From: Alphaproteobacteria bacterium
GTDB lineage: Bacteria > Pseudomonadota > Alphaproteobacteria > UBA7985 > JAUIBT01
NCBI GenBank assembly: GCA_030428565.1
Contig: JAUIDR010000015.1
Span: 1 to 63,879, forward strand
DNA length: 63,879 nt
Reading direction: 5' to 3'
Shown: piece by piece, positions 19,069 through 22,174 of the stretch
Layout: each line of letters starts with the position of its first letter
How positions within the stretch are numbered: the first letter of the stretch is position 1
Program-made: the position numbers and the translations under genes
Notes under the pieces: model-generated
Databases searched by the model: none
What the model was told of the DNA's origin: nothing
Seen by the model: the letters and a program-made list of their open reading frames with translations, nothing else

Positions 19069-20664
19069 TTAGGCAGCAGCGACCTCAGAATCTGCCTTTT
19101 CGCGCTTAACGATATAGCGATTCAGCGCATTGGCATAGGCACGCGCAGAGGCGACAAGCGTATCCACATCTGCGCCCAAACCGGTCACGGTCCAGCCGTC
19201 GTGCTCCAACTTCACCGACACTTCCGCCTGCGCATCCGTGCCGCCGGTCACCGCATGAACTTGATAGAGCTTGAGGTTGGCTTCGTGCGGATAGGCTTTG
19301 TGGAAGCCATTAAAGATCGCATCAACCGGACCATTGCCTTCGGCCGTCACGGGCACCCGCTGACCATCAACACGCACCACCAAACTTGCGACGTGGGGGC
19401 CTTTGTGGCCACAATGGATGGACAGCTCTTCGAACTTGATCGTGTCATTGGCCCGCGCCGTATCGTCCACAAGGGCAATCAAGTCCTCGTCGAACACGTC
19501 TTTCTTTTGGTCCGCCAAGTCTTTGAAGCGCTGGAACGCGTCGTTCAATTGATTATCGGCAAGCGTGTAACCCAATTCAGCCAGCTTGGTCTTGAAGGCA
19601 TTGCGGCCCGAGTGCTTACCCATGACCAAGTTAGAATCGGTCAGACCGACCCACTCCGGGCGCATAATCTCATAGGTCTCGGCGTTCTTGATCATGCCGT
19701 CTTGGTGAATACCGCTCTCGTGGGCAAACGCGTTGGCACCGACGATTGCCTTGTTCGGCTGAACGCCAAAGCCGGTGATATTCCCCAAAGCCTTAGAGGC
19801 CTTCATGATCTTGGTGGTGTCGATATCGGTAAAGAAAGGCAAGCGATCTGCACGGGTGCGCATGGCCATGACCACTTCTTCCAACGAAGCATTGCCCGCA
19901 CGCTCGCCGATGCCGTTGATGGTGCATTCGATCTGGCGCGCGCCGGCAAAACAGCCCGCCAAGGAGTTGGCAACCGCCACGCCCAAATCGTTGTGGCAGT
20001 GGGTTGAGATTGTCGCCTTGTCGATGTTGGGCACCGAGTTCATCAGCATCTCGATCAACTCCTGATACTCGTCGGCCACCATATAGCCCACCGTGTCAGG
20101 AATATTGATGGTGGTCGCGCCGTGCTTGATTGCGGTCTCGACCACCCGGCACAAGAAATCGCGCTCTGTGCGGGTGCCGTCTTCGGGCGACCATTCGACA
20201 TCATCTACCTTTGAGCGCGCATAGCTGACGGAATCAACGATGGCGTCCATTACCGCGTCCGGCTCCATGCGCAGCTTGTACTTCATGTGGACCGGCGAGG
20301 TTGAAATAAAGGTGTGAATGCGCGCGCGCTGGCCGCCGTCGGCGTGTTGCAGCGCCTCCCAGGCACGGTCAATGTCCTTGCGGTTGGCGCGGCACAGGCC
20401 AGCGATGACGGAGCGCGTTGATTGCTCGGCAATGGCCTTAACGCTCTCGAAGTCGCCGTTTGAGGCGATGGGGAAACCGGCCTCAATAATGTCTACACCC
20501 ATCTCTTCCAAGATGGCTGCAATGCGCAGTTTTTCTTCAAGGTTCATCGAACAGCCTGGGGACTGTTCACCGTCGCGCAAAGTCGTATCGAAGATCTTGA
20601 TGCGATCGCGGTTTGTCGTGTCGATACCTTGGATGTTGGTATTGGTCGTCATAGTAGCACTCAT
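19069..20664 (-). CDS. leuA: 2-isopropylmalate synthase
   Basis: LeuA condenses acetyl-CoA with 2-oxoisovalerate, the committed step of leucine synthesis. The 531-residue protein has the catalytic TIM barrel with [13 protein letters not shown] near residue 25, the metal-binding HCHNDLG and NGIGERAGN, and a C-terminal allosteric domain ([16 protein letters not shown]) where leucine feedback acts in the family. Two ATGs four codons apart (20664 and 20652) are possible starts; neither has a clear ribosome-binding site. An upstream Leu-rich leader peptide and mutually exclusive stem-loops indicate attenuation by leucyl-tRNA supply. Confidence 0.97.
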
Positions 20665-20769
20665 TTAGCTTGGCAGCGCGGGGGCCCATTTGGGCCAAGG
20701 CGCGTCTGTATTATCGGTAAAATACGGCTTCAGCAAGGTGCGTTCCAGATCAAAGCTGGGGAACGACGG

Positions 20770-20828
20770 TGCCCCTGAGCGCTAGAATCGCGCTCAGCCA
20801 AACACGATCCCGTCTGCCCTCAGGGGCA
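20770..20828 (-). promoter_or_regulatory. leuA leader, mutually exclusive RNA structures
   Basis: In the minus-strand transcript the segment at 20819-20828, which overlaps the end of the leader ORF including its stop, is perfectly complementary over 10 bases to 20770-20779. Bases 20776-20779 of that second segment also form part of a local hairpin (20776-20782 with 20790-20796, TGAGCGC/GCGCTCA, 7-base loop). Both pairings cannot exist at once. Ribosome position at the leader's end should decide between them. No U-run directly follows, so termination may be Rho-dependent, or translation of leuA may be the regulated step; a further GGCCC/GGGCC hairpin lies just before the leuA start. Confidence 0.65.
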
Positions 20829-20876
20829 AAATAGGCCTAGGTTTAGAACCAGCAGGAGGCGTGCGGCTTTGATCAT
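20820..20876 (-). CDS. leuL: leuA leader peptide (attenuator)
   Basis: An 18-codon ORF encodes MIKAARLLLVLNLGLFCP, six of 18 residues Leu, using CTC, CTG and CTA codons. It lies about 155 bases upstream of leuA on the same strand. An in-frame stop lies three codons before its ATG, so it is a discrete ORF. There is no Shine-Dalgarno, but the A of the ATG falls seven bases after a -10 element, as expected for a leaderless transcript; leaderless attenuator peptides such as trpL are known in alphaproteobacteria. Its last codons overlap one arm of the alternative RNA structure. Assignment rests on composition, position and structure, not homology. Confidence 0.7.
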   Translation of the reverse strand: MIKAARLLLVLNLGLFCP

Positions 20877-20906
20877 GCAAAAAGGCTAGCGGCTCGCTGA
20901 GCCGCT
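20877..20906 (-). terminator. hairpin with T-run after the EamA gene, overlapping the leuA promoter
   Basis: AGCGGCTC/GAGCCGCT (20888-20895 and 20899-20906, loop of three) followed on the minus strand by AGCCTTTTTG. It lies about 120 bases after the EamA stop and would insulate leuA from read-through, though the stem-to-T distance is not ideal. Confidence 0.5.
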
Positions 20907-20911
20907 GCCAA
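20883..20911 (-). promoter_or_regulatory. promoter of leuL-leuA
   Basis: On the minus strand TTGGCA (20906-20911), exactly 17 bases, then TAGCCT (20883-20888). Predicted +1 is the A of the leader-peptide ATG at 20876. The spacer is filled by an 8-base-arm inverted repeat (20888-20906), which could be an operator. Confidence 0.5.
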
Positions 20912-20991
20912 GGAAAAATTGCGCGCTTGGGAAATTTTGTTAGCCCCTTCCTCGCCGCGATAGCGCATCGCGGACTAACAATTGGCCGATA

Positions 20992-21027
20992 GACCAGGTG
21001 CTAGATCAGATGCTAGACGGGGCGCTA
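20992..21027. repeat. imperfect 12-bp tandem repeat at the EamA-gene stop
   Basis: Three 12-base units, GACCAGGTGCTA, GATCAGATGCTA and GACGGGGCGCTA, at 20992-21003, 21004-21015 and 21016-21027. Each ends in CTA, the complement of a TAG stop; the third CTA is the actual stop of the minus-strand gene. Confidence 0.75.
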
Positions 21028-22020
21028 AACCGGGCGACGGCGCACCCATGCATGAACACGCCCGCGGTTGCGAATGGCTGGCAACTTGGCCTCGCGTAAG
21101 GCGATATACAGCCCCGAAGCGCAGATCAAGGCGATGCCAGCCCAACCAAGAGCATTGGGCATGGTGCCAAAGACCAACAGGCCGAACAGGCTCGCCCAAA
21201 TAATCGTGGTATAGTCCATGGGCGCAACGAGGGACGCTGGAGCGAGCGAGTAGGCTTGCGTCAACAGGTATTGCGCCAAGGCTCCGCCGACAGCAAAGCC
21301 AGCCAACAAAAGCCATGCTTCAAGGTCCGGCCAGCGCCAGACCCAAAATTGAATCGGACCGGTCAAAATCAAAAAAGCGAACTGAGTATACCAGAAGGTC
21401 GTGATTCCCCGATCGGTCGCGCCAGCCTTGCGGGTCAAAACGTTAGAGAGGGCGTAGAGCATCATCGATACCAGCGCGATGCCGGTATAGGCCGACACAC
21501 ATTGCGCGCCCGGTTGTGCCACCATCGCTACGCCGACAAAGCCCAAAGCCACTGCGGCGCCGCGATGCCAGCCAATTTTCTCGCCCAGCAAGGGCACGAC
21601 CAGGATCGTCACCGCGATGGGCGCGGAATAGACGATGGCCACGGCGTCGGCCAAAGGCATCGCCGAATAAGCAAAGATGGCGATCAGCATGGAAACCGAG
21701 CCCGCTGCCGCGCGCCCGACCTGCACCATGGGCTGAACAGTTCGCAAGGTCTGCCAACCGCCCCTAGACCGCGCCAACAGCACACCCAAACCCAGCCCTG
21801 CCAGACAACGCAGCAGCAAAATTTGCGTGGGATGATAGTCGTCCGCCAGCAGCTTTGAGACCGTCTCGAGCATGGCATAACAGAGCATGGCGGCGGCGGC
21901 GCACAGAACCCCGATTAACACGGCTGACTGGCTGGCATTGATGCCAGGCTGGGGCAGCTTGACCGTCTCCAGTTGGATCGACGGCTCGGGCGGTGTGGGC
22001 AAAGGCAAAGACGTGGTCAT
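21025..22020 (-). CDS. EamA/DMT-family transporter
   Basis: A 331-residue inner-membrane protein with about ten membrane helices arranged as two EamA domains (AMLCYAMLETVSKLLADD and LALVSMMLYALSNVLTRK-type repeats). Members export metabolites or amino acids; the substrate here is unknown. The N-terminal 30 residues are Pro-rich and cytoplasmic, the C-terminus strongly basic. ATG at 22020 is preferred over a GTG three codons upstream because AGG lies eight bases before it. The stop lies inside a 12-base tandem repeat. leuA is downstream on the same strand but probably insulated. Confidence 0.88.
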   Translation of the reverse strand: MTTSLPLPTPPEPSIQLETVKLPQPGINASQSAVLIGVLCAAAAMLCYAMLETVSKLLADDYHPTQILLLRCLAGLGLGVLLARSRGGWQTLRTVQPMVQVGRAAAGSVSMLIAIFAYSAMPLADAVAIVYSAPIAVTILVVPLLGEKIGWHRGAAVALGFVGVAMVAQPGAQCVSAYTGIALVSMMLYALSNVLTRKAGATDRGITTFWYTQFAFLILTGPIQFWVWRWPDLEAWLLLAGFAVGGALAQYLLTQAYSLAPASLVAPMDYTTIIWASLFGLLVFGTMPNALGWAGIALICASGLYIALREAKLPAIRNRGRVHAWVRRRPV

Positions 22021-22174
22021 GGCGCGCACCTAGGCAAAGCTGCGATCCGCCCACCAACGTCGGATCGCGTGTTGGCCCAGCTAACCTCAGCCAGGTGATA
22101 CAACCCGCTCAATCGCGTCTACTGCGCCGCTTTTAGGCGGGTTTGCCCAAAAAAACTCACCGCGAAATATGTTG

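Follow-up and report, generated by a model that had tools for sequence, protein, structure and literature searches.

A leucine-rich leader peptide ahead of leuA as a candidate translational attenuator in Alphaproteobacteria

A short leucine-rich open reading frame ahead of leuA is, judging by its pattern of conservation, a leucine sensor kept across the Alphaproteobacteria. We studied it in a stretch of 63,879 nucleotides from an alphaproteobacterial contig (the window), and we propose that it is probably a leucine-responsive leader-peptide attenuator whose read-out is the initiation of leuA translation. An earlier note, made from the letters of the window, had suggested a leucine leader-peptide attenuator at this site, and the alignment of relatives and the conservation of their Leu codons support it. 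More tentatively, we raise the possibility that this is an undescribed alphaproteobacterial leuA attenuator in which a single RNA stretch acts both as leucine sensor and as anti-Shine-Dalgarno strand, whichever type of LeuA follows, and that the genus of the window has rewired it into a relay with the leaderless 5′ end as the switch strand.

The leuA gene of the window encodes a 2-isopropylmalate synthase (TIGR00973, 698 bits; NF002087, 820 bits), and its longest reading frame covers 19069-20664 of the minus strand. Neither sister species has the ATG at 20664, so we moved the start to the ATG at 20652, which is probably the true one. Below, the window is locus L001, and the sister species of the same genus are L031 and L032. 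The leader sits ahead of leuA on the same strand, as the earlier note had described, and is arranged with its promoter as follows.

19069..20652, minus strand: leuA with its likely start
20650..20668, minus strand: translation-initiation region of leuA, with GAGT ahead of the ATG at 20652
20820..20876, minus strand: leader ORF, 18 codons plus TGA, encoding MIKAARLLLVLNLGLFCP, predicted to be leaderless; peptide and nucleotides are kept in the sister species
20883..20888, minus strand: −10 element TAGCCT, identical in the three species
20906..20911, minus strand: −35 element TTGGCA, identical and at an equal distance in the three species

The leader contains six Leu codons, at positions 7, 8, 9, 11, 13 and 15 (CTC CTG CTG CTA CTA CTA). 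CTA supplies three of the six; over eight genes of the window, 5% of all Leu codons are CTA. The sister species encode the peptides MIKATRLLLVLNLGLSCP and MIKAHRLLLVLNLGLICP, and peptide, promoter hexamers and pairing are all conserved there. Across the three species, leader codons 6-15 show zero nucleotide changes; fourfold sites in leuA differ by 46-52%. The pairings that we propose below leave this nucleotide-level conservation unexplained. Within the invariant codons lies a palindrome, TAGGCCTA (20832-20839), through which an RNA-RNA contact is possible.

The three genus members have a common promoter layout (TTGGCA, 17 nt, TAGCCT, 6 nt, ATG) with spacers of unrelated sequence. Six nucleotides lie between the −10 element and the ATG, whose A is thus the seventh base, just as the earlier note had counted, and transcription is predicted to start at this A, position 20876. 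Similar spacing in most other lineages with short leaders adds to the case for a leaderless ORF: among leaders of at most 19 codons, those of the genus included, the best promoter-like site ending 4-9 nt before the ATG outscored every shifted control position, by a hand count, in 14 of 19 loci. Longer leaders, whose start codons are uncertain, gave no such promoter-to-ATG spacing signal. The −35/−10 spacer of the window also holds a perfect palindrome, AGCGGCTCAGCGAGCCGCT, followed by TTTTT (20888-20906), which resembles the terminator of the upstream gene. We rejected this palindrome (20906-20888) as a component of the device because it is absent from the sister species. Farther upstream, on the strand of the leader, is an EamA-type transporter gene (21025-22029). 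Additionally, an imperfect inverted repeat of 15 nt links the leuA start region (20664-20678) with the leader promoter (20903-20917), the latter arm falling outside the transcript if the predicted start is used.

A leaderless layout of this kind, as predicted here, could also mean that the leader yields an sRNA or an 18-residue peptide acting in trans, for which rnTrpL/peTrpL of Sinorhizobium meliloti is the precedent (PMC10117765). The codons 6-15, frozen at the nucleotide level and containing TAGGCCTA, would suit such a role, but the window has no terminator to release a short RNA, and the peptide itself is conserved within the genus only; other lineages keep just the pattern of Leu residues and the final residues. 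We therefore regard action in trans as very improbable. The proposed leuA attenuator does resemble S. meliloti trpL (PMC10117765) in being an alphaproteobacterial leader peptide whose transcript is predicted to start at the AUG; it differs in amino acid and gene, and trpL yields an attenuator sRNA whereas this locus shows no sign of a terminator or of sRNA release.

The core of the element is a helix that runs through the stop codon of the leader and involves the following strands.

20819..20828, minus strand: 5′ strand of the stop-codon helix, TGCCCCTGAG, with covariation across 46 loci, stop codon included
20770..20782, minus strand: GCGCTCAGGGGCA, in which 20770-20779 form the 3′ strand of the stop-codon helix and 20775-20782 the 3′ arm of a competing hairpin
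20790..20797, minus strand: CTGAGCGC, 5′ arm of the competing hairpin

In the window, TGCCCCTGAG (20828-20819) pairs perfectly over 10 bp with CTCAGGGGCA (20779-20770). The earlier note had pointed out this pairing, and covariation argues that the helix is real. In an alignment of 46 loci (A1), which were chosen partly by the helix, 6 of the 10 pairs show double changes, and the double-changed cells number 28 compared with 5.2 in shuffles, none of 500 shuffles reaching 28. The stop codon follows its pairing partner, with TGA opposite TCA and TAA opposite TTA among 50 loci profiled, and the same loci have Leu at codon −4 in 50 of 50 cases and at codon −6 in 47. Both the compensatory changes and the Leu-codon conservation that had been proposed as a check in relatives were thus found. 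The competing hairpin, formed by CTGAGCGC (20797-20790) and GCGCTCAG (20782-20775), shares a strand with the stop-codon helix. It too had been noticed beforehand, and it is present in the window, but it is confined to the three genus members, and for this reason we rejected it as the general switch.

Folding programs recover less of this. Single-sequence folding of the window region is weakly unusual (z −1.95), as it would be if a chance ORF had met chance complementarity. That account is refuted by class-wide conservation, by covariation and by the exclusive position upstream of leuA, which leave it a negligible probability. RNAalifold over all loci recovered the 6-bp core alone because the loop and the distal pairing differ in register between loci; the distal pairing was therefore tested by permutation, as described below.

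We picked 61 leuA upstream regions, from 101 alphaproteobacterial ones, that have a Leu-rich ORF ending in xCCCCTGA and pairing with TCAGGGG; the 50 loci profiled above are among them. A covariance model, R1, built from the 46 loci of A1, matched 91 of 241 alphaproteobacterial genomes at E <= 0.01, and these matches were not chosen by distal pairing. All 70 matched loci that were examined directly precede a 2-isopropylmalate synthase gene, about 12 of them overlapping the training genomes. Among sampled genomes from the rest of the phylum, R1 gave three matches only, all weak. Some of the matched loci encode the other LeuA type, about 28% identical to the query. At L149, L180 and L186, for example, the leader element stands ahead of a yeast-type LeuA (NF002991) that is about 28% identical to the LeuA of the window, and the element is therefore tied to function, not to one gene family. 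A variant was seen at L191, L200 and L203, where the leader ends in LLLLSRL or similar and CCTCTGA pairs with TCAGAGG or TCAGGGG.

The element has no evident counterpart among catalogued RNA families. Rfam 15 (4227 families) gave no credible match in the window region, and 12 relatives yielded no leader family at gathering score; a search covering the open, as opposed to the subscription, literature found no description of the element in Alphaproteobacteria. So strongly conserved a core as CCCCTGA/TCAGGGG could be the mark of an RNA that binds a regulatory protein or a ligand, with the leader ORF secondary, as has been proposed for the actinobacterial LEU element (discussed in PMC1262725). However, Leu at codon −4 is invariant, and the inner loop is free in sequence and length, whereas the reading frame is kept throughout the class. 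No conserved unpaired pocket is present either. On this evidence we judge protein or ligand binding to be rather improbable.

What the leader appears to act on is the Shine-Dalgarno region of leuA. Two segments were tested against each other: the 29 nt of leader that immediately precede the helix, and the 32 nt that immediately precede the leuA ATG. Overall, leaders pair more strongly with their own leuA start than with those of other loci (z −5.8 over 52 loci; 0 of 3000 permutations with GC-matched blocks), and the signal recurred (z −6.7; 0 of 3000) in an independent set of 36 loci, found through the model alone and likewise not chosen by distal pairing; the loci are related, so these permutation figures are nominal. 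In the first set the control segments gave a weaker signal (GC-block z −2.2 for the coding segment that follows the ATG), and in the second they gave none. The pairing is densest between leuA positions −14 to −10, where the Shine-Dalgarno sequence lies, and Leu codons −6 to −5. Across the family its register is locus-specific: at L084 CTGCTCCT pairs with AGGAGCAG, at L004 CCTTAGC pairs with GCTAAGG, and at L190 ACTTAGC pairs with GCTAAGT. In 62 of 88 loci, the leuA start became cheaper to open when leaders were swapped between loci (Wilcoxon p 9e-6). When a ribosome stalled on one of the Leu codons was modelled, the opening cost dropped by over 1 kcal/mol in 49 of 61 loci; this figure uses the best of several Leu codons, a choice which favours a drop.

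The earlier note had found no classical U-run terminator and had left the read-out as either Rho-dependent or translational. The first point holds: the window has no intrinsic terminator (GC hairpin plus U-run) downstream of the leader, just 2 of 88 loci have five or more U among the 8 nt that follow the helix, and just 7 of 88 have any U-rich stretch before leuA. These counts weigh against classical transcription attenuation at an intrinsic terminator, as in Escherichia coli leu or trp. Such a system would have the Leu-rich leader ORF and the alternative, strand-sharing helices seen here, but with no Rfam leader family matching either, we consider it extremely improbable. As to the read-out, the Shine-Dalgarno pairing, the near absence of U-runs and the leader-swap result together lead us to prefer translational attenuation through the leuA initiation region. 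Of the two options left by the note, Rho is now the less favoured. Leader translation might still govern Rho-dependent termination between leader and leuA, with a stalled or absent ribosome altering Rho access. The window lacks a U-run terminator, the gap of 155-180 nt in the genus has room for a Rho site, and Rho has been raised for leader peptides without terminators (PMC1262725). Yet the distance from the helix to the leuA ATG is only some 42-60 nt in about half of the relatives (median 59), and the family-wide signal on the leuA Shine-Dalgarno region would be unneeded under Rho control; we think this explanation unlikely.

By analogy with other ribosome-mediated attenuators, translational control of leuA would work as follows. 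When leucyl-tRNA is plentiful, the ribosome would complete the leader and depart. The helix CCCCUGA around the stop codon would then close, bringing leader and leuA start together, and leader sequence would pair with the leuA initiation region and turn leuA off. In most relatives the Leu codons themselves would be the anti-Shine-Dalgarno strand. When leucyl-tRNA is scarce, a ribosome stalled at the Leu codons would cover that strand, the initiation region would stay open and LeuA would be made. Given the usual ribosome footprint, the Leu at codon −4 would place the stop-codon helix beneath a ribosome stalled there, and a stall would therefore keep the helix from closing and the anti-Shine-Dalgarno strand from pairing. 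RNA structures that share strands are present at the locus; their switching by ribosome position is a result of modelling.

This arrangement has likenesses to known systems. The nearest in the open literature, the actinobacterial LEU element (Seliverstov et al. 2005), lies upstream of leuA and has been described as a pseudoknot (PMC1262725). Mutations of Leu codons in an actinobacterial leuA leader are reported to have deviated from the prediction of classical attenuation (PMC1262725), which counts against our reading. Both elements precede leuA with a leader ORF that holds a run of Leu codons, and both lack a terminator. For both, a base stem is predicted in which Leu codons pair with the Shine-Dalgarno box of leuA; in the alphaproteobacterial family it has statistical support, and in the window it is weak. 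Unlike the LEU pseudoknot, which we know by description, the alphaproteobacterial core (CCCCTGA/TCAGGGG) is a helix that spans the stop codon of the leader. With the gammaproteobacterial leu and trp attenuators, of the kind of Rfam Leu_leader, the element has in common an amino-acid-rich leader peptide, alternative helices and the ribosome as sensor; unlike them, it has no intrinsic terminator, no Rfam match and a predicted translational read-out.

A large share of the Alphaproteobacteria would have a leucine-sensing mRNA element that stands outside Rfam 15 and the open literature searched. If our proposal is right, the codons that sense leucine double as a lock on the leuA ribosome-binding site, making for a compact, terminator-free form of translational attenuation. 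The likeness to the actinobacterial LEU element, as seen from its published description, raises the question of convergence versus common descent. The lineage with leaders predicted to be leaderless offers a simple setting in which to study a leaderless leader ORF as a sensor.

In that lineage the direct pairing is weak. The later Leu codons of the window pair with the leuA start at −7.6 kcal/mol, and foreign leaders were as good as its own in 11 of 40 swaps, compared with 1 of 40 and 2 of 40 in the sisters. Within the genus, a relay through the 5′ end of the leader seems to replace this pairing; this is the least certain part of our proposal and comes from folding models. The strands concerned are as follows.

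20866..20874, minus strand: strand X, leader nt 3-11, GAUCAAAGC, a perfect 9-nt complement of 20748-20756
20760..20765, minus strand: 5′ arm CGUUCC of hairpin P, which would sequester GGAACG; conserved in the genus
20748..20756, minus strand: strand X′, GCUUUGAUC, complementary to strand X and located within the hairpin P loop
20738..20746, minus strand: strand Y′, GGAACGCAC, the predicted partner of the leuA initiation region

The complementarity of X and X′ is exact in L032 and includes one G-U pair in L031. A ribosome that stalls at Leu codons 7-9 would cover leader nt 3-11. In the putative relay, GAUCAAAGC:GCUUUGAUC would alternate with the hairpin CGUUCC:GGAACG, and the choice between them would free or capture GGAACGCAC. 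Modelling a stall at Leu 7 in L032 raised hairpin P from 0.02 to 0.99 and lowered leuA-start pairing from 0.98 to 0.08. L031 follows this behavior in part. In the model of the window, the leuA start pairs directly with leader nt 6-16, and the relay is ambiguous. Across the genus, the 5′ part of the leader (nt 3-16) would be the strand that the ribosome covers, acting either directly or through the relay. With a modelled stall at Leu 7, the cost of opening the leuA start fell from 5.4, 6.9 and 8.4 to 3.2, 3.0 and 2.3 kcal/mol in the three species, a drop of 2-6 kcal/mol in all three.
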